Shown: positions 38,384-46,613 of the stretch, one piece after another
Position numbering within the stretch: position 1 is the stretch's first letter
Layout: each line of letters starts with the position of its first letter
Origin: Bradyrhizobium sp. SZCCT0153
Lineage (GTDB): Bacteria; Pseudomonadota; Alphaproteobacteria; Rhizobiales; Xanthobacteraceae
Length of the DNA: 64,000 nucleotides
Direction: 5' to 3'
Assembly: GCF_018129995.1 (NCBI RefSeq)
Contig: NZ_JAFCKS010000001.1
Span: forward strand, 903,001-967,000
Translations under genes and position numbers: made by a program
The notes under the pieces: model-generated
Seen by the model: the letters and a program-made list of their open reading frames with translations, nothing else
The model's database searches: none
What the model was told of the DNA's origin: nothing

Positions 38384-38450
38384 AATTGCTCTCCGCTTCT
38401 TCCGGGAGCAGAGTTTGAAACGCGTGGCGAAACGAATGACCGCGCATGTG

Positions 38451-38482
38451 GTTGACTAGCGAACGATCGTTCGTTAGTCAAC
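38451..38482. promoter_or_regulatory. 32-bp palindromic TetR operator
   Basis: GTTGACTA(G/A)CGAACGATCGTTCG(T/C)TAGTCAAC is an inverted repeat over 32 bp with only one mismatched pair, centred at 38466/38467. Its right edge is 5 bp before the TetR start codon. A repressor bound here would block its own transcription and initiation (inference). Confidence 0.8.
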
Positions 38483-38487
38483 CTTGT

Positions 38488-39189
38488 ATGGCTGTCCCCA
38501 CCCTCAGTGCGGCGCAAGCGGTTGCGCCGACGACCCGCGAGCGCATCCTCTCCGAGGCGCTCAATCTGTTCGCGCAGAGCGGCTATGGCGGCGCCTCGAT
38601 GCGCGAGCTCGCGCGCCGCGTCGGCGTCCGCGAGAGCAGCCTCTACAATCATTTCGCCGGCAAGGCCGCGATCCTGGAAGCGATCGTTGCCGAGCACGGC
38701 CCGGCGAGTTCGGCGAGCCGGCTGGAACAAGCGCGCTACAGGCAGCTCGCGCGCCAGCCTGCTGCGTTCTGCCGGCAGTTTGCATTTGACCTGGTCGAGC
38801 AATGGTCCGATCCCCGCGAACACCAGTTCCAGAAAGTCATCACCGCCGAGCGAAACCGCGTGCCCGGCATCCGCGCCAAGTTCGCCGATCATTTTTACGC
38901 GCGCGAGCAGAGCATGATGACGGATTATTTTCGCGGCTTCGCGCTTGCCGGCCTGGTCTCGACGTCCGATCCGCGCGAGACCTCGCGGCTGTTCGCGGCC
39001 GGCCTCATCTACATCCGCCTCGAGCATTACGTGATGGGGGCGGCGCCGTCGCCGCGGCCGAAGGTGATCGAGGCGATCGACCGGTATCTCGCCTTCTTCC
39101 TGTCGCTGATCGCGGCGGATGGCGGGACGCACGTCAACAAGAAACGAAAAGCCAAGGGAGAGACGCGTGGCAAGGCTGCCCCTGATTGA
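38488..39189 (+). CDS. TetR/AcrR family transcriptional regulator
   Basis: A 233-residue repressor with a helix-turn-helix at about residues 16-62 (ASMRELARRVGVRESSLYNHFAGKAAILEAIV), a helical ligand domain, and a Lys-rich tail. ATG 38488 sits 5 bp after a 32-bp palindrome and lacks a strong ribosome site. The stop overlaps the CMD-family gene by 23 bp, so regulator, CMD and SDR genes form one autoregulated operon. Confidence 0.88.
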   Translation: MAVPTLSAAQAVAPTTRERILSEALNLFAQSGYGGASMRELARRVGVRESSLYNHFAGKAAILEAIVAEHGPASSASRLEQARYRQLARQPAAFCRQFAFDLVEQWSDPREHQFQKVITAERNRVPGIRAKFADHFYAREQSMMTDYFRGFALAGLVSTSDPRETSRLFAAGLIYIRLEHYVMGAAPSPRPKVIEAIDRYLAFFLSLIAADGGTHVNKKRKAKGETRGKAAPD

Positions 39190-39727
39190 TCCGGAGACGA
39201 CCAGCGGCGATATCCGCGCCTCGTTCGACCGCATGCCGGTCAAGCTCAACATCTTTCGCATGATGGCCCATGCCGAGGCCAACATGATCCCGGCGATGCG
39301 GCTCGGCAATTCGATCCTGCACAAGCAGAAGCTCGGCGCGGTCAACCGCGAGCTGTTGATCCTCCAGGCCGCCCAGCTGGAAGGCGGCGCCTATGAATGG
39401 CGCCAGCACGTGCCGATCGCGCTTGGCGTCGGCTGCACGCAGGCACAGATCGATGCGGTCGAGCGCGCTGACTATGACGCCAACGCATTGAACGAAGCCG
39501 AGCGTGCGCTGCTCAAATTCGGCCGCGACGTCGTCGAGAATGTCCGCGTGGGCGAAGCGACCTTCGCCGCCGCTCGCAGGCACTTCAGCGACCAGGAGAT
39601 CGTCGAAGCCATCGTCACGCTCGGCTTCTACATGATGATGGCGCGTCTCACCGAAGCCACCGAGACCGATCTCGATCCCGCAGCCGGCATGAAGGTCTAT
39701 GACGCCGGCAAGAAGCCGGGCCGCTGA
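39167..39727 (+). CDS. Carboxymuconolactone decarboxylase (CMD) family protein
   Basis: A 186-residue all-helical CMD/AhpD-fold protein. The core pattern is LNIFRMMAHAEANMIPAMRLGNSIL and REL-LILQAAQLEGGAYEWRQHVPIALGVG. The CxxC pair of AhpD peroxidases is absent, so decarboxylase-like or unknown chemistry is more likely. GTG 39167 has GGGAG 6 nt upstream and starts inside the TetR gene. The SDR gene follows at once. Confidence 0.85.
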   Translation: MARLPLIDPETTSGDIRASFDRMPVKLNIFRMMAHAEANMIPAMRLGNSILHKQKLGAVNRELLILQAAQLEGGAYEWRQHVPIALGVGCTQAQIDAVERADYDANALNEAERALLKFGRDVVENVRVGEATFAAARRHFSDQEIVEAIVTLGFYMMMARLTEATETDLDPAAGMKVYDAGKKPGR

Positions 39728-39728
39728 G

Positions 39729-40574
39729 ATGGCGGAAACCGAGAGCAAGCCGGACCGCTACGTCCGACCGCCGAGCGCGGAGTCACTGGGCGAGGCGCCG
39801 GGCAGGGGACGCCTCAAAGGCCGCCGCATCCTGATCGTCGGCGGCGGCCAGCGCGTGTTCGACGCCGCCACCGATCCGATCGGCAACGGCCGCGCCATGA
39901 GCATTCTTTGCGCTCGCGAAGGCGCGAAGGTCGCCGTCGCCGATCTCAACCGCACCTCCGCCCAGCAGACAGTCAAGCACATCATCGATGAAGGCGGTGA
40001 GGGTTTTGCCATCGCGGCGGACGTCACGAGCGAGGCTGACGTTCAGCGCATGATCGAGGAAGCTCACCGGGCTATGGGCGGCCTCGACGGCATGGTGCTG
40101 AACATCGGCACCTTCGGCAAGGTCGGGCTCGATGCCGTCAGCCCCGAGGAGTGGAATGGGATTTACGACGTCAACGTCCGCGGTCCCATGCTGTGCTGCC
40201 GCGCGGCCATGCCGAGATTCGACAACGGCGGCGCCATCGTCTTCATCTCCTCGATCGCCGCGCTGAAGGCCGGCTCGCAGATGGCGGTATACGATTCCTC
40301 CAAGGCCGCACTCGGCGGCCTCATGCGCAACATCGCCCATCTCGGAGCGCGCCGCGGCATCCGTGCCAATCTCGTCTATCCCGGCCTCGTCGACACCCCC
40401 AACGGCCGCGAGGCCGGCGCCGGCCGCCCCAATCGCGGCAAGGGCCACGTCCCCTTCGGCCGCCAGGCCACCGCATGGGAGATCGCCTACGCCGTGCTGT
40501 TCTTTCTCTCGGATGAAAGCGTCTATGTCACTGCGCAGACACTCGCGGTCGATAGCGGGCTGAGCGGGATGTGA
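39729..40574 (+). CDS. SDR family oxidoreductase
   Basis: A 281-residue short-chain dehydrogenase/reductase. The catalytic Ser-Tyr-Lys set is in FISSIAAL and YDSSKAAL, and NIGTFG replaces the usual NNAG. The cofactor loop is atypical: VGGGQRVFDAATDPIGNGRA instead of TGxxxGIG, with an insertion before the glycine turn. The stop of the CMD gene lies 2 bp upstream, indicating translational coupling. The substrate is unknown. Confidence 0.87.
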   Translation: MAETESKPDRYVRPPSAESLGEAPGRGRLKGRRILIVGGGQRVFDAATDPIGNGRAMSILCAREGAKVAVADLNRTSAQQTVKHIIDEGGEGFAIAADVTSEADVQRMIEEAHRAMGGLDGMVLNIGTFGKVGLDAVSPEEWNGIYDVNVRGPMLCCRAAMPRFDNGGAIVFISSIAALKAGSQMAVYDSSKAALGGLMRNIAHLGARRGIRANLVYPGLVDTPNGREAGAGRPNRGKGHVPFGRQATAWEIAYAVLFFLSDESVYVTAQTLAVDSGLSGM

Positions 40575-40583
40575 GGCGGCATC

Positions 40584-41093
40584 CTATCGCTCGGGCGACA
40601 GCGCCCGGCCGAGCAGATGGTCGAGCGAGACCCGCCCCGGCCCGTAGGCCATGATGCCGAGCGCCATTGCGGCCCAGGTGATGTGCACCGGCCAGCCGTC
40701 GGGCACGGTGAGTTCGACGATGACAGTCATGAATAGCAGTCCAAGGGCGGCGAACCGAGTGCCGAGTCCGAGGATCAGCAGAATCGGGAACATGATCTCG
40801 CCGCACCCTGACAGGAAGGCCATCACCGTCGGCGCCGGATAATGATAGGGGCCGCCCGGCAGATGCAGCATGAATTCGTCGGTGAACAGCGTCACTGCGG
40901 TGTCGTTGAGCTGCAGGAAGCCGCCCCATTTGAGAATGCCGGAGCGCCAGAACGGCACCGCCAGTGCGACGCGCAGCACGAGCTGGACGATCGACGGCGA
41001 TGCGATGGTCTTCACCAGATCATTGGCCCTCTCGATGAGCAGCCTGATAGCCGGTGGGTTGCCGCCTGCAGACAGGCGTTGATCCGCGATCAT
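40584..41093 (-). CDS. DoxX family membrane protein of the bufferin operon
   Basis: A 169-residue inner-membrane protein of the DoxX family with about four membrane segments. Typical blocks are LRVALAVPFWRSGILKWGGFLQL and GCGEIMFPILLILGLGTRFAALGLLF. ATG 41093 overlaps the bufC stop by 4 bp. DoxX genes are frequent in DUF692/DUF2063 operons, where their role is not settled; redox or membrane steps in export are possible (inference). Confidence 0.87.
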   Translation of the reverse strand: MIADQRLSAGGNPPAIRLLIERANDLVKTIASPSIVQLVLRVALAVPFWRSGILKWGGFLQLNDTAVTLFTDEFMLHLPGGPYHYPAPTVMAFLSGCGEIMFPILLILGLGTRFAALGLLFMTVIVELTVPDGWPVHITWAAMALGIMAYGPGRVSLDHLLGRALSPER

Positions 41094-41872
41094 CGTGGGT
41101 CTCCAGAGGCAATTGAGCTGAATGCGCCGGCTTCGATCAGGCCGGCGATGTTCGAGGCGATGTCGAAACCGGGCGATGCCTCCAGCGCCGACACCGCGGC
41201 CTCGCCGAGCGGCTGGCCCGACATCAGACCGGTCGCGAAGACCGCGCCGCCCGGCGGAAGGTGCCGGACGGTGACGTCGAATTCTGCGCGCGTGATCAAC
41301 GCGTCCTCCGGCGTCGATGCGTCGATGTGTTCGAAGGGCGCCGTATCGCGGTTGGCAGCAAAGATGGTCACCGCCGAGAATCGCGACCGCACGATGTGCG
41401 CCGCCGGGTGAGGCGCTAGGACGAGATCGGCCAACCGGTCGGGCGCGACAGCGGAAAGCTGTGCCGGCGCGAGCGGCGCGGCGTCGCGCGCGTGATATGC
41501 GTCGAGCCAGGCCCGCTCGATGCGGGCGACGTCGGCGAGCCACGGCATCGTCTGCGCATGTTCGTAGGCCTCGATGAAAGCCGGAAAGTCGCGGCCATAG
41601 TCGAACAGCAGCGGCGAGGTCGGCGGCGTCTGGCGAACATGGAAGCGCGCCATGGCGCGGAAGAAGTCGGGGCCGGTGATGCGCTGCACCGCCGGATAGA
41701 TCGCGGCGACAGCGTCGATCAGGCTGACCGTGACGTTGTTGCGGTAGACGTCGTAGCGTTTGCCGCCCGCCTTGCCGTTCGGGCCGGTCACCGCCGCAGG
41801 CACACCGCGCGCCGGATCGAGCAGCGCCGGCGCGAAGGTCGCGGCAAAGGACAGATCCTGCTCAGGCGGCAT
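41090..41872 (-). CDS. bufC: BufC-type DUF2063 partner protein of MNIO enzyme
   Basis: A 260-residue protein with an N-terminal DUF2063 (HvfC/BufC) domain, about residues 8-105: RYDVYRNNVTVSLIDAVAAIYPAVQRITGPDFF is the hallmark. The C-terminal half is an alpha/beta accessory domain. In characterised systems this protein delivers the precursor peptide to the DUF692 oxygenase. It overlaps bufB by 11 bp and the DoxX gene by 4 bp. GGAG precedes ATG 41872. Confidence 0.88.
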   Translation of the reverse strand: MPPEQDLSFAATFAPALLDPARGVPAAVTGPNGKAGGKRYDVYRNNVTVSLIDAVAAIYPAVQRITGPDFFRAMARFHVRQTPPTSPLLFDYGRDFPAFIEAYEHAQTMPWLADVARIERAWLDAYHARDAAPLAPAQLSAVAPDRLADLVLAPHPAAHIVRSRFSAVTIFAANRDTAPFEHIDASTPEDALITRAEFDVTVRHLPPGGAVFATGLMSGQPLGEAAVSALEASPGFDIASNIAGLIEAGAFSSIASGDPR

Positions 41873-42776
41873 GACGATCTCCGGTTGGCGCGGGTTGATT
41901 GCAGCGGTCGAGGATCGCCTGCGCGGCGGCGGCTTCCGCCCGCAGGATCGGCCAGTCCGGGATGTTGCTGTCCCACTCGATCAGCGTCGGCACGGCGCCG
42001 CGGCGCCGGACGACGATCTCGTAGAGCTTCCACACGGCGTCCGCGACCGGGCCGTCATGGCTGTCGATCAGCAGCAGATCGCCTTCGTCGTCAGCCTGCC
42101 CGGCGTGGCCGGCGAGGTGGATTTCCCCGACGAAGGACAGCGGAAAATCGGCGAGATAGTCGAGGGCCGAGAATCCATGATTGGTCGCGGAGACGAACAC
42201 GTTGTTGACGTCGAGCAGCAGGCCGCAGCCGGTGCGTTCGGCAACGGCGCGGATGAAGTCGGTCTCGCTCATCGAGGATTCGCGGAAGGCGACATAGGTG
42301 GAGGGGTTTTCCAGCAGCAGCGGGCGGCGGATCGCGTCCTGCACCTGATCGATGTGATCGCAGACGTTCCGGAGCGTTGCTGCGGTGTAGGGCAGCGGCA
42401 ACAGATCGTTGAAGAAGCTGGTCTCATGCGTCGACCAGGCGAGATGTTCGGACACCAGCGCGGGCTGGTAGCGCGCCACCAGTCCGCGAAAGCGGGCCAG
42501 ATGCGCCTTGTCGAGCGGCTGGGGTCCGCCGATCGACATGCAGACGCCGTGCAGTGACAGCGGATGATCGCGACGGATCGCCTCCAGCGCGCGGTGGGGC
42601 GGACCGCCCGCGCCCATGTAGTTCTCGGCGTGGACCTCGAAGAAGCCGCGTTGCCGTTCCGCGCCCAGGATCGCCTGAAGATGTTCGGGCTTGAAGCTCG
42701 TCCCGGCGACGCCGCCGATTGGCGCGGAATAGCGGAGGGGCACCGCAGACATGTCAGGCGCGATTGCCGTCGTCAT
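41862..42776 (-). CDS. bufB: BufB-type DUF692 multinuclear non-heme iron oxygenase (MNIO)
   Basis: A 304-residue TIM-barrel enzyme of the DUF692/MNIO family. Visible metal-ligand regions are FFEVHAENYMG, LHGVCMSIG, SEHLAWS, LENPSTY, LLLDVNNVFVSATNHG and GEIHLAGH. MNIOs oxidatively modify cysteines in RiPP precursors; the Caulobacter bufferin enzyme forms thiooxazole groups. ATG 42776 follows GGAG. It sits 51 bp downstream of the precursor gene and overlaps bufC. Its substrate is therefore almost certainly the DUF2282 peptide (inference from operon). Confidence 0.92.
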   Translation of the reverse strand: MTTAIAPDMSAVPLRYSAPIGGVAGTSFKPEHLQAILGAERQRGFFEVHAENYMGAGGPPHRALEAIRRDHPLSLHGVCMSIGGPQPLDKAHLARFRGLVARYQPALVSEHLAWSTHETSFFNDLLPLPYTAATLRNVCDHIDQVQDAIRRPLLLENPSTYVAFRESSMSETDFIRAVAERTGCGLLLDVNNVFVSATNHGFSALDYLADFPLSFVGEIHLAGHAGQADDEGDLLLIDSHDGPVADAVWKLYEIVVRRRGAVPTLIEWDSNIPDWPILRAEAAAAQAILDRCNQPAPTGDRHAA

Positions 42777-42827
42777 GGTTTCTCTCCGCTCTTCCCTGTT
42801 GTCGTGGTGGTCGCGACGCGCAGCGCG

Positions 42828-43133
42828 TCAGACCGGCTTGAGCGAGCCCTTCTTGCCGCCCGGCAGCTCGATGCTGGCGCAGGTGCCGCCCTGGACGAAT
42901 TTCCAGGCGTTGCCCTGGAAGTCGGTGGTCGAGGTGCCCTGGCAGGTCGTGCCCGGTCCGGCCGCGCAATCGTTCTGGCCCTTCAGGGCGACGCCGAAGC
43001 ATTTTTCCTTCTTGGCGGCGATGGCCGCATCGGCCTCGGCCTTGGTGAGCGGGCCGGCAGCGGCGAGGGTGGCAAGGGCGGTCGACATCGCGCCGGCGAG
43101 AACGAACGTCGTGACGACATGCTTGGCAGACAT
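42828..43133 (-). CDS. bufA1: BufA1-type bufferin precursor (DUF2282), metal-binding RiPP
   Basis: A 101-residue precursor with a Sec signal peptide (about residues 1-25) and four cysteines: Cys45 (KEKCFG), Cys56 (NDCAAG), Cys64 (TTCQG) and Cys85 (GTCAS), with the DUF2282 core GNAWKFV. Related bufferins of Caulobacter bind copper after the middle cysteines are modified by an MNIO. ATG 43133 has AGGAG 8 nt upstream; an upstream in-frame start is not needed. It is the first gene of the operon, with a sigma-F-like promoter 57-82 bp upstream. Confidence 0.9.
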
Positions 43134-43189
43134 TGGAGTTTCTCCTGTTCGAGATGGCATCGCCTGGCAGGCGAAGGCGCATGGTTCCG

Positions 43190-43215
43190 TTCGCTCCGCG
43201 CACAGCCCGCGTTAC
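43190..43215 (-). promoter_or_regulatory. Sigma-F-like (ECF) promoter of the bufferin operon
   Basis: On the minus strand GTAACG (43215-43210) is followed, exactly 16 nt later, by CGAA (43193-43190). This fits the Caulobacter sigma-F consensus GTAACC-N16-CGAA with one mismatch. The expected transcript start near 43183 leaves a leader of about 50 nt before the bufA1 ATG. The sigma gene itself is not in the window. Confidence 0.6.
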
Positions 43216-43443
43216 CGCGAAGCTGCTCACGAAGCCGTGAGACCGCTTGGATCGGCGCACCACAGGTGCGCTTGGGCCGGGATTTGCGGGCAAGCGGCCG
43301 TTCAAATCCAATGCCGTGGCGCTATCGACTCATTAGCGGGAGAGCATTGGTGGCGGTTGGTCGCGCCTGCCAGAGGTAACGAACGGCGGAAGCCTGCGTA
43401 AAGCGATGACAGGAGCCGCGCCCGGCCAAGAGCGGAAACAGCC

Positions 43444-45534
43444 ATGAATGTCGATCCCGGACGCCGACTTCGCGCGATCGCCAGGTTGACGGTCAGCATC
43501 CGCCTTGCCGTTTCGGCGCTGGTGCTGACCGCGATCCTGCTGACGGCGGCGCTTTCGAGCCTGCTATGGTGGCGCACGGCGGAAGCGGCCAGCCGCCAGC
43601 TCGCCTCGACCATCAACGAGCAGATCGTGGCTGCGGTGCGCAAGGAGGTCTCTGCCATCGTGGACGAGGCGCGCGCCGCGCACACTGCGATCCGTACCCT
43701 GTTCCTGCAGAACGTGCTCGACACCCGCGAGGCCGACAAGCGCGAATTCGTGTTCCTGTCGCAATTGCAGTCGCAGGCGACGATCTCATGGGTCGCCTTC
43801 GGTTGGCCCGACGGCTCCTTCTTCGCCGCGCACAAGCTCGGCGACCGCCGCCTGGAGATGATGGAGATCTCGCTGACCGATCATGCCGGCCAGCGCCGCG
43901 TCGACGAATACGACGTGGTGCCCGGCGACATCGAATTCGCCAATCGCCGCTTCGAGCCGACCGATTTCCGTGTCGCCGAGCGCGCCTGGTTCAAGACCGG
44001 GCTGGCGGCCGAGGAACCGCAATGGTTCAAGGTCATGGACCATCCGACCGGCGAGCGGCCGTCGATCGCCTTCGCCGGCCCGATCGATGTCTACCAGGAG
44101 CGGCAGGGCGTCCTGGCCATCGTCATCGAGTACACCAGGCTCGCACGCTTCCTGGCGCAGCTCGAGGTCGGACGCACGGGAACGGCTTTCATCATCGATA
44201 GCAGCGGCGAGTTGGTCGCAGCCCCCGACAGGGACGCCGACGAGCTGCATGCCGCGAAGAGCGATACCAGATTGCTGCCGCTGGCGCAGATGGCGCACGC
44301 GAAGGCGGGCGAGGACGGCCGCAAGGAAGCCTGGCGAAGTCGGCTGACGTCGGCCGGCGGGGCCTACGAAGTCGCGCTCACGCCGTTGCCGTTTCCCGGC
44401 TGGTCGCTGGCGACCGTGATCCCCGAGGCCGAGTTCCTCGGTCCGGTCGAGACGACATTGCACCGCCTGATCCTCGGCCTTGCCGTCGGCGCCGTGCTCG
44501 CAGCATTGGCCTCGGCGTGGCTGGCACGCTCCGTCATCGCGGCGCCGCTGTCGCGCGTCGTCGGCGAGCTTCGCCATGTCGAGGCCTTCGCGCTGGAGCA
44601 GGTCCGGCGCCATCCGTCGCGGCTCAAGGAGATCGCGAGCCTATCGGGCGCGATCGCCGAGATGGCGGCCGGCCTGTCCGCGTTCCGCAAATTCATCCCG
44701 GCCGATCTCGTCCGCGCCCTGCTGCGCCAGGGCGTCGAGGCCCGGCCCGGCGGCAGCATCCAGGAGCTCAGCGTGATGTTCGTCGACATCGCCGGCTTCA
44801 CCGGGCTGTCCGAGCGGCTCGGCGATCGCGTGGTACCGCTGCTTTCGCGCTATCTCGACCTCGCCTCCGAGGCCGTGGTCGCCAATGGCGGCACCATCGA
44901 CAAATTCATCGGCGACGCCGTGATGGCGTTCTGGGGCGCGCCGCAGCCGCAGGCCGACCACGCGCTGCGCTGCTGCCGCGCGGCGCTCGGCTGCCGCAGC
45001 GCGATCGCGGCGTCGGGCCTTGCCGACGATCTCGGCCAGCCGCTCCAGATCCGGATCGGGATCAACTCCGGCCGCATGCTGGTCGGCAATATCGGCTCGG
45101 AGCTGCGCCTGAACTACACCGTGATCGGCGATGCCGTGAACGTCGCGAGCCGCCTCGAGGGCGCCAACAAATCCTACGGCACGCAAATCCTCATTGGCGA
45201 AGCGACCGAACGTCTCGCGCGCGGCGCCATCATCGCGCGCGAGATCGACAGCATCGCCGTGTATGGACGTGAGGAGGGTTTTCCGGTCTATGAATTGATC
45301 GGACTTGCCGGTGAGAGCGGCGGTGAGACGCTCGATTGGATCGTCCGCTACGAACAGGGCCTTGCCAACTATCGCGCACGCCGATTTGCCGCAGCACTCG
45401 CCGATTTCGAAGCCGTGCTCAGCGAACGCGGCCATGATCGACCGGCCGAACTCATGCGCGAGCGCTGTCGGCAGTTCCTCGCCGACGCGCCCGATGCGTC
45501 ATGGCGTCCGGTCGCGGCGCTGACGACGAAGTAG
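43444..45534 (+). CDS. Membrane class III adenylate cyclase with sensor domain
   Basis: A 696-residue receptor cyclase. Membrane segments at about 17-43 and 338-360 flank a periplasmic dCache-like sensor (about 45-335; GTAFIIDSSGELVAAP is typical). A HAMP-like linker and a class III catalytic domain (about 435-615) follow. Both metal aspartates are present (VDIAGFTG and GDAVMAFWG), as are the adenine-selecting Lys in IDKFIGD and Asp in VIGDAVN, so ATP to cAMP is likely. A C-terminal helical tail follows. It is divergent from the bufferin operon, 310 bp away. Confidence 0.87.
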   Translation: MNVDPGRRLRAIARLTVSIRLAVSALVLTAILLTAALSSLLWWRTAEAASRQLASTINEQIVAAVRKEVSAIVDEARAAHTAIRTLFLQNVLDTREADKREFVFLSQLQSQATISWVAFGWPDGSFFAAHKLGDRRLEMMEISLTDHAGQRRVDEYDVVPGDIEFANRRFEPTDFRVAERAWFKTGLAAEEPQWFKVMDHPTGERPSIAFAGPIDVYQERQGVLAIVIEYTRLARFLAQLEVGRTGTAFIIDSSGELVAAPDRDADELHAAKSDTRLLPLAQMAHAKAGEDGRKEAWRSRLTSAGGAYEVALTPLPFPGWSLATVIPEAEFLGPVETTLHRLILGLAVGAVLAALASAWLARSVIAAPLSRVVGELRHVEAFALEQVRRHPSRLKEIASLSGAIAEMAAGLSAFRKFIPADLVRALLRQGVEARPGGSIQELSVMFVDIAGFTGLSERLGDRVVPLLSRYLDLASEAVVANGGTIDKFIGDAVMAFWGAPQPQADHALRCCRAALGCRSAIAASGLADDLGQPLQIRIGINSGRMLVGNIGSELRLNYTVIGDAVNVASRLEGANKSYGTQILIGEATERLARGAIIAREIDSIAVYGREEGFPVYELIGLAGESGGETLDWIVRYEQGLANYRARRFAAALADFEAVLSERGHDRPAELMRERCRQFLADAPDASWRPVAALTTK

Positions 45535-45770
45535 TCGGAATATCCGGAACAGGTTGCCGCACGACGTGGGTGGTCGGCGGGGCTCCGCAATCCCGTTCAG
45601 GGTTGAGCATCCTTGGCCACCACGAGATTCAGATTGCACGTCATAGCCAATCCGCCTAATACAATTGGACAAATGAACAAATAGCATGGTCGAATACCGA
45701 AAGGTGGGCCATGGAGGAACGGTGCCCTGGGCGTGCAGCGCGCGAGGGTGGCCAAGGATGGTAGCGCAGC

Positions 45771-46613
45771 ATGTCGCATACGAACGCATTTGGCCTGGCG
45801 GGTGTCATCGGCATGCCGGTCGCGCATTCGCGTTCGCCCGTCATTCATAATTACTGGCTGAAGGCGCACGGCATCCGCGGAACCTACGTGCCGCTCGCGG
45901 TCGAGCCGGAGCGGCTCGAGGACGCGCTCCGCGGACTTGTCGCGCTCGGCTTTCGCGGCTGCAACGTCACCATGCCGCACAAGCAGACGGCGATGAAGCT
46001 GCTCGACCGCGTCAACGAGACGGCGACCCGCATCGGCGCCGTCAACACCATCGTCGTCGAGGAGGACGGCACGCTCTCCGGCTTCAACAATGACGGCAAC
46101 GGCTTCGTTCAGAGCCTGCGCGACGCCAGGGCCGGTTGGCGCGGCTACGCCGGGCCGATCCTGCTGCTGGGTGCGGGCGGCGCATCGCGCGCGGTGGTCG
46201 TGGCGCTGCTGGAGAACGGCGCGCGCGAGATTCGCATCGCCAACCGCACGGCGGAGAAGGCGCAGGCGCTTGCAAACGATTTCGGCTCCGCCGTCAGCAC
46301 CGTTGCCTGGGACGACCGCGGCGCCGCGCTCGGCGACGTCGCACTGCTCGTCAATTGCACCGATCGCGGCATGGTCGGCAAGGGTGCGCTCGAGATCGAC
46401 CTGTCGCGGCTCAAGCCTGAAACGCTCGCCGCGGATCTCATCTACACGCCGCTGGAGACGCCGTTCCTGGCCGAGGCCCGCGCCCGCGGCTGCACCACGG
46501 TGAATGGGCTCGGCCTCCTGCTCAACCAGGCCCGGCTCGCCTTCAAGGCCTGGTTCGGTGTCTTGCCCGACGTGACGCCAGAGCTGATCAAGGCCATCGA
46601 GGCGACATTCTGA
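45771..46613 (+). CDS. aroE: Shikimate dehydrogenase family protein
   Basis: A 280-residue AroE/YdiB-type dehydrogenase. The substrate domain has SRSPVIHNYWL, the catalytic Lys71 in NVTMPHKQ and Asp108 in FNNDGNG. The NADP domain has the glycine loop LLGAGGASRAVVVALLENGA and NRTAEKA. It interconverts 3-dehydroshikimate and shikimate or acts on quinate. Linkage to an amidohydrolase and an ABC binding protein, rather than aro genes, suggests a catabolic paralogue (inference). Confidence 0.9.
   Translation: MSHTNAFGLAGVIGMPVAHSRSPVIHNYWLKAHGIRGTYVPLAVEPERLEDALRGLVALGFRGCNVTMPHKQTAMKLLDRVNETATRIGAVNTIVVEEDGTLSGFNNDGNGFVQSLRDARAGWRGYAGPILLLGAGGASRAVVVALLENGAREIRIANRTAEKAQALANDFGSAVSTVAWDDRGAALGDVALLVNCTDRGMVGKGALEIDLSRLKPETLAADLIYTPLETPFLAEARARGCTTVNGLGLLLNQARLAFKAWFGVLPDVTPELIKAIEATF

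Follow-up and report, generated by a model that had tools for sequence, protein, structure and literature searches.

The four genes bufA1-bufB-bufC-doxX, which form one operon on the minus strand (40584-43133) of a 64,000-nucleotide (nt) stretch of Bradyrhizobium sp. SZCCT0153 (contig NZ_JAFCKS010000001.1, positions 903,001 to 967,000; hereafter the window), constitute, as judged from their sequences, a Buf1 bufferin cluster, i.e., a cluster for a ribosomally synthesized and post-translationally modified peptide of the captophorin class. We consider it quite likely that four features hold jointly: the operon is driven by an extracytoplasmic function (ECF) sigma factor of group ECF16, a second regulator acts at a palindrome upstream of the promoter, an mRNA hairpin at the bufB ribosome-binding site controls the ratio of the products, and a divergently transcribed sensor cyclase gene is a co-target of the sigma factor. 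The operon and its promoter are of a known type; the palindrome and the bufB hairpin are elements for which we found no description, and these two, together with the divergent cyclase promoter, had been missed by an earlier, sequence-only reading of this DNA.

In the mechanism we propose, envelope stress would free an EcfF-type ECF16 sigma factor from an NrsF/OsrA-type anti-sigma factor, and the freed sigma would transcribe bufA1-bufB-bufC-doxX from GTAACG-N16-CGAA. Ahead of its Sec export, BufA1 would be converted by BufB and BufC at its two central cysteines, thiooxazole being the product expected for a Buf1 cluster (about -4 Da per converted cysteine, going by a related peptide in PMC13097082), and the modified peptide would bind periplasmic copper; both the cysteine modification and the copper binding of BufA1 are predictions from homology. 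A dimeric DNA-binding protein would act at TCACG-N4-CGTGA, a site common to ecfF and some other EcfF-type promoters; a long-range mRNA hairpin would pair the bufB ribosome-binding site with codons near the beginning of bufB and leave the bufA site open, such that much more precursor than enzyme would be made; and the divergent sensor cyclase would be a probable further target of the sigma.

The operon is composed as the sequence-only reading had described it, with four minus-strand genes and tight junctions: bufC overlaps bufB by 11 nt, doxX overlaps bufC by 4 nt (ATGA), and a 51-nt gap separates bufA1 from bufB. The families it had named were recovered by profile searches above the respective cut-offs, BufA1 matching DUF2282 (78.8 bits; cut-off 22.4), BufB matching MbnB_TglH_ChrH (352 bits; cut-off 25) as well as the NCBIfam equivalog MNIO_BufB (NF050167; 379.9 bits; cut-off 310), BufC matching DUF2063 (PF09836; 80.1 bits; cut-off 27.2), and DoxX matching the DoxX family (62.9 bits; cut-off 23.6). 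PF05114 and DUF2282 each have one match in the whole 7.4-Mb genome. The four cysteines in DUF2282 spacing are present as C-x10-C-x7-C-x20-C in 79 of 80 BufA proteins, the remaining one having x6, and the BufA1 N terminus has, by eye, the typical look of a signal peptide (positively charged start, hydrophobic core, AAAG region). In BufB, 30 His/Asp/Glu/Asn/Cys positions are kept by at least 98% of column residues (81 sequences). The same core of precursor, MNIO enzyme, DUF2063 partner, and DoxX is shared by Buf1 bufferins/captophorins generally, whose precursors are modified at two central cysteines and which, as bufferins, chelate excess copper (PMC12452194). The overall interpretation as a Buf1 cluster with an ECF16/sigma-F promoter stands; the added claim that such systems are poorly described outside a few species was overstated, as thousands of Buf1 and Buf2 bufferins have been catalogued, with doxX counted in the core and the Sec signal peptide noted (PMC12452194).

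The sequence-only reading had also placed GTAACG and CGAA 16 nt apart and likened them to a sigma-F-type ECF promoter, and we agree on both points. Taken alone the motif means little, because it is not enriched genome-wide against its reversed pattern, which served as a rough control: there are 20 GTAAC-N17-CGAA places versus 38 reversed, 6 versus 56 at the spacing one nt shorter, and 14 versus 102 for the CGTA version. It is positional conservation that carries the assignment. The motif occurs in 26 of 27 Bradyrhizobium-type upstream regions versus 0.6% of dinucleotide shuffles (this set omits L063 and L088-L090, with BufA 70-74% identical, of which L088-L090 have the motif and L063 does not), and in the upstream alignment both promoter boxes are near-invariant while the spacer drifts. 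Among the named relatives it lies within 300 nt in 71 of 79 upstream regions, with 5 for the reversed pattern; on the opposite strand it occurs in 16 of the 79, a count that includes some divergent promoters. When more distant bufferins are included, 41 of 70 loci have it, so it is not common to every bufferin. A transcription start is predicted at ∼43184-43183 from the primer extension of ecfF in PMC3420878. A scan for sigma-70 promoters gave none for bufA and a single weak site within the operon on the opposite strand, and a scan for terminator-like sites found none.

A genome search for an ecfF/sigF gene, as that reading had proposed, yielded one ECF sigma/NrsF pair. The only NrsF-family protein of the genome (C12:530077) is encoded directly behind an ECF sigma gene (locus L002), unlinked to the bufferin operon (contig C12 versus C1); the sigma factor has sigma-70 regions 2 and 4, and its partner matches NrsF in Pfam at 196.6 bits. 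Upstream of the pair stands GTAACA-N15-CGAA, which agrees with the EcfF motif and the mapped ecfF start of Bradyrhizobium japonicum (PMC3420878); B. japonicum OsrA, at 212 amino acids (aa), equals the NrsF-family protein here in length and domain type. We assign the pair to the EcfF/OsrA type, the cognate kind for the bufA promoter. We searched 120 genomes, our own included, of which 71 others belong to the same genus; Bradyrhizobium also supplies the closest named relatives of BufB. Each of the 71 congeneric relatives, like our genome, has an NrsF match, so the sigma system would be core and the bufferin cluster one optional target; DUF2282 was found in only 31 of the 71, which makes the cluster accessory.

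Just 5' of the -35 box lies a palindrome with the consensus TCACG-N4-CGTGA. It is present in 27 of 27 Bradyrhizobium-type upstream regions and in 0.17% of shuffles. An anchoring promoter near the start was available for 75 of the 79 named upstream regions and not for the other 4; TCACG-N4-CGTG with at most one mismatch starts 20-32 nt before GTAAC in 66 of the 75 (two more have two mismatches), whereas a control interval 60-72 nt before GTAAC holds it, at the same tolerance, in none. Its hosts are mostly Rhizobiales (Bradyrhizobium, Rhizobium, Ensifer/Sinorhizobium, Mesorhizobium, Devosia, Pleomorphomonas, Reyranella, and others), and it is absent from three Burkholderiales loci, Bosea, Inquilinus, one of two Chelatococcus, and L186. 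In our own genome TCAC-N6-GTGA occurs 45 times, and the palindrome (at most one mismatch) accompanies 5 of 40 ECF16-like places, with three promoter patterns pooled: those of bufA, ecfF, a secreted msrA, and a DsbD-like gene that counts twice, its region being duplicated. Beyond the 3' end of the DsbD-like gene, a thioredoxin-like gene has the same orientation (L249). All 72 genomes of the genus have the palindrome together with the promoter, against a total of 2 hits for the reversed pattern, and the longer ATCACG-N4-CGTGAT occurs merely 1-4 times per genome (16 genomes). In a second NrsF clade, TCACGTCGGCGTGA or a near variant precedes the GTAACC of a small exported-peptide gene by 17-18 nt. 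The string "palindrom" is absent from the main texts of PMC3511200, PMC6180224, PMC8315932, and PMC4842269, and the parts of PMC3420878 consulted hold no mention of such an element, the literature on EcfS being outside the scope of this search. We conclude that the palindrome is probably an operator for a putative second DNA-binding regulator.

Two separate observations concern these elements. Many loci of the second Bradyrhizobium NrsF clade (L094-L112) have a gene for an exported peptide of ∼85 aa (WPNEA or similar) behind nrsF. A second conserved palindrome, GATCACG-N4-CGTGATC, occurs in nine genomes of the genus (L289, L291, L294-L296, L299-L302; C4:37783-37798 in our own), in alignable surroundings with GACTCGTTAAGGACTC-like sequence near.

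At the bufA1-bufB junction, the ribosome-binding site of bufB, which reads GGAAAGCGGAG in many relatives, has its complement in early codons of the gene, and pairing of the two leaves a loop of ∼46 nt containing the bufB start codon. The longest exact complement averages 8.6 nt in 79 loci, versus 6.45 after synonymous recoding (highest of 100: 6.7). The duplex energy is -26.6 kcal/mol for matched arms and -23.4 kcal/mol for arms exchanged between loci (79 loci; 0/5000 permutations as low), and the result is the same for 48 non-redundant loci (0/5000) and in a less careful start-codon version of the test (0/5000 for 50 loci). Pairing of the site with positions +28 to +77 is predicted at a mean of 0.83 (0.76 in the window) versus 0.43 in recoded controls; in 69 of 75 loci it is 0.5 or higher. 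L172, L183, L191, and L194, whose bufB starts are uncertain, were kept out of the pairing-probability set and retained in the duplex-energy set; L148 was never placed in the hairpin tests.

Covariation was assessed over 13 pairs in a structure-blind MAFFT alignment of 58 loci. Stem cells are paired in 81.7% of cases versus 75.6% when shuffled (0/500), 10 of the 13 pairs have changes on both sides versus 6.9 in shuffles (11/500 reach it), 38 cells are changed on both sides versus 13.7 (0/500), and the stem covariation score is 0.219 versus 0.153 (0/500). Controls slid by one column, which keep relatedness, show 53-55% paired and a lower score, with 41 both-side cells for the +1 slide. The signal is confined to one start of the operon. 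The bufA start gave the reverse: no permutation out of 2000 was less stable than the matched arms, and with 36 non-redundant loci 1997 of 2000 reached their stability. The bufC (201/2000) and doxX (1413/2000) starts gave none. In this clade, the bufB site is thus predicted to be closed and the bufA site to be kept open, from which we infer that precursor is made well above enzyme, the hairpin lowering enzyme synthesis and so setting the peptide-over-enzyme ratio. The words "hairpin," "mRNA," "promoter," and "palindrom" are absent from the main text of the bufferin survey PMC12452194, and within the parts of the literature consulted we recognised no account of such a bufB element.

The long stem, the start codon within the ∼46-nt loop, and the compensatory change would also suit a switch (operated by temperature, a ligand, an RNA-binding protein, or a small RNA) or an mRNA processing site, as opposed to a constitutive setter of the ratio. 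We think this rather unlikely. No mutually exclusive alternative pairing was noticed, although no systematic search for one was made; Rfam gave no match at E up to 1 for 40400-45600; and the small terminator-like hairpin after the bufA stop (GACGCG-CTG-CGCGTC), which had been considered as a bufA booster and rejected, is not kept in the 13 relatives displayed.

Several results weigh against the proposal as a whole. Among the profiles, the HvfC model on BufC, the HvfX model on DoxX, and the NCBIfam NrsF equivalog on the L002 protein all score under their cut-offs. The promoter near the start codon is absent or altered in L063, L069 (altered -10 box), L155, L182, L184, and L198. By eye, no transcription factor gene beside the operon was recognised among the 25 most recurrent neighbour groups, where those recognised were the core genes with their alternative frames, NrsF, the cyclase, and an SDR gene; palindromic sites elsewhere in the genome gave no candidate regulator either. 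The spacing from palindrome to promoter varies by promoter family (17-18, 20, 24-27, and 29-30 nt), which fits poorly with a strictly phased activator. As to the hairpin, relatedness alone can exceed covariation shuffles, RNAalifold found no consensus structure in the 58-sequence junction alignment, and 27 more distant bufferin operons gave no signal (1316/5000; several starts uncertain, L052 and L072 being the same place), so the hairpin is at best a clade feature.

The variable spacing bears as well on whether the palindrome might belong to the sigma factor's own recognition, or be an upstream DNA-structure element, and not be another protein's operator. Such a role would account for its company with ECF16 promoters of several families, and in the buf promoters of the three Burkholderiales loci (L199, L200, L202) an A-rich tract stands at the position that the palindrome takes in Rhizobiales. 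We regard it as improbable given that spacing, a dyad symmetry that reaches 16-18 bp, and the absence of the palindrome from 35 of the 40 ECF16-like places of our own genome (many of which may be chance). The failure of RNAalifold, in turn, would suit an ordinary Buf1 operon under an ECF16 sigma alone, in which palindrome and hairpin have no regulatory role; published ECF16 systems have been explained without further elements (PMC3511200, PMC3420878, PMC6180224), and L163, L169, L186, L187, L199, L200, and L202 lack the palindrome yet keep GTAAC-N17-CG[AT]. This simpler account appears to us improbable, as both elements are fixed in place while the intervening sequence drifts, the stem has compensatory changes, and the bufA, bufC, and doxX starts do not share the hairpin signal.

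The remaining part of the proposal concerns the gene divergent from bufA1, which encodes a dCache_1 sensor domain with a class III nucleotide cyclase. For 29 of the 80 named loci, the stretch that was fetched contains a relative of this cyclase; 28 of them are from Bradyrhizobium (two of the matches, L125 and L127, being weak) and one is from Mesorhizobium (L192). GTAAC-N15-18-CG was found within 140 nt of the cyclase start in 47 of 50 testable loci, a count made with a loosened pattern and no shuffled control, after leaving out five loci with a partial match; the 50 are not independent, because some strains were counted twice, once per collection. With a conserved ECF16-type promoter at this place, the sensor cyclase is, judged from sequence, likely to be controlled by this sigma too. 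Another conserved block lies in the bufA-cyclase intergenic region at 43308-43350, with CCAATGC and GGCATTGG as arms ∼28 nt apart, and may belong to the cyclase promoter.

Caulobacter crescentus CC3254-CC3257 (CCNA_03363-03366) shares the DUF2282-DUF692-DUF2063-DoxX order and the promoter type, and is SigF-dependent (PMC3511200); listed for our genome, the side that this comparison covers, are an unlinked sigma/anti-sigma pair, the palindrome, a hairpin at bufB, and an ECF16-type promoter before the divergent cyclase gene. In Caulobacter, copper induces the SigF regulon, and a strain mutated in sigF is sensitive to copper (PMC8224329). Sinorhizobium meliloti SMb20530-SMb20527, which its authors liken to CC3254-CC3257 and for which they list a promoter (PMC6180224), shares the ECF16 sigma (RpoE7/EcfR7) and a four-gene operon with DUF692 and DUF2063 genes; there the sigma pair is divergent beside the operon, whereas in our genome it is unlinked. 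In B. japonicum, EcfF targets include methionine sulfoxide reductases and bll1027-26 (cytochrome c biogenesis type plus a hypothetical protein), to which, matched by description, the msrA and DsbD-like genes here appear to correspond. Table 3 of that paper, within the part consulted, names no bufferin-type gene and holds hypothetical proteins, and DUF692 and DUF2282 are absent from the EcfF/OsrA text (PMC3420878).

In Bradyrhizobium, copper or any other inducer appears to be the weakest step of our proposal, because B. japonicum EcfF answers oxidants and S. meliloti RpoE7 does not answer H2O2, Cd, or chromate. The inducer could instead be oxidant damage to the envelope, with the bufferin serving an EcfF oxidative-stress response and copper secondary, and we give this somewhat less than an even chance. 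B. japonicum EcfF/OsrA responds to H2O2 and singlet oxygen (PMC3420878), and the palindrome with an ECF16-like motif is found also at msrA and at the DsbD-like gene with its thioredoxin-like neighbour. Against this, SigF and the bufferin operon of Caulobacter are copper-induced (PMC8224329), oxidants induced the Caulobacter SigF targets no more than twofold (PMC3511200), and in S. meliloti H2O2 failed to induce the rpoE7 and SMb20530 fusions, as did Cd and chromate with the promoter fusion of the bufferin operon (PMC6180224).

We raise tentatively, as possible and rather below an even chance, that bufferin operons of the Rhizobiales clade are under three layers of control taken together: an ECF16 sigma answering stress, a palindrome regulator that would form a coherent loop by acting at bufferin and sigma promoters alike, and a covarying hairpin at the maturase site by which precursor would be held in large excess or maturation be released under a further signal. 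If true, the divergent receptor cyclase would couple a copper or redox response to cyclic-nucleotide signalling. A hairpin that closes just the maturase site would make the question of precursor per maturase addressable in one intergenic region, and the palindrome suggests an additional partner of ECF16 sigma factors in Rhizobiales.

Table 1. Positions of the bufferin operon, its predicted control elements, and the divergent cyclase gene in the window.
Feature	Position	Strand	Description
bufA1	42828..43133	-	Buf1 (DUF2282) bufferin precursor, 101 aa; C-x10-C-x7-C-x20-C
bufB	41862..42776	-	MNIO maturase, 304 aa; exceeds BufB equivalog cut-off
bufC	41090..41872	-	DUF2063 partner protein, 260 aa
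doxX	40584..41093	-	DoxX-family membrane protein, 169 aa
ECF16/EcfF-type promoter	43190..43215	-	GTAACG (43215-43210), N16, CGAA (43193-43190)
Palindrome	43227..43240	-	TCACGGCTTCGTGA (inside CTCACGGCTTCGTGAG); 11 nt from last base to GTAACG; probable operator
Hairpin 5' arm	42784..42795	-	GGAA-g-AGCGGAG; holds the bufB ribosome-binding site
Hairpin 3' arm	42726..42737	-	CTCCGCT-a-TTCC; within bufB codons 14-17
Divergent ECF16/EcfF-type promoter	43376..43400	+	GTAAC-N16-CGTA before the cyclase gene
dCache_1 + class III nucleotide cyclase gene	43444..45534	+	divergent from bufA1

Two candidates regarding bufA1 were set aside. The start is taken as the ATG at 43133, with AGGAG upstream, from which close orthologues align at residue 1; a longer open reading frame from 43160 is not needed, as that alignment already begins at residue 1. 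A special cysteine spacing in BufA1 was ruled out, the pattern being common (67 of 70; two unparsed, one with x6).

Convergent with doxX, genes for a TetR-type regulator, a CMD-family protein, and an SDR enzyme occupy 38446-40574 on the plus strand, and a shikimate dehydrogenase gene (45771-46613, plus strand) lies beyond the cyclase. Elsewhere in the genome, contig C16 contains, between ∼439799 and 1020400, five opposite-strand pairs of pattern places whose coordinates all sum to 1460199, and two compared pairs of 3-kb stretches there are exact reverse complements; this very long inverted duplication is perhaps an assembly artefact.

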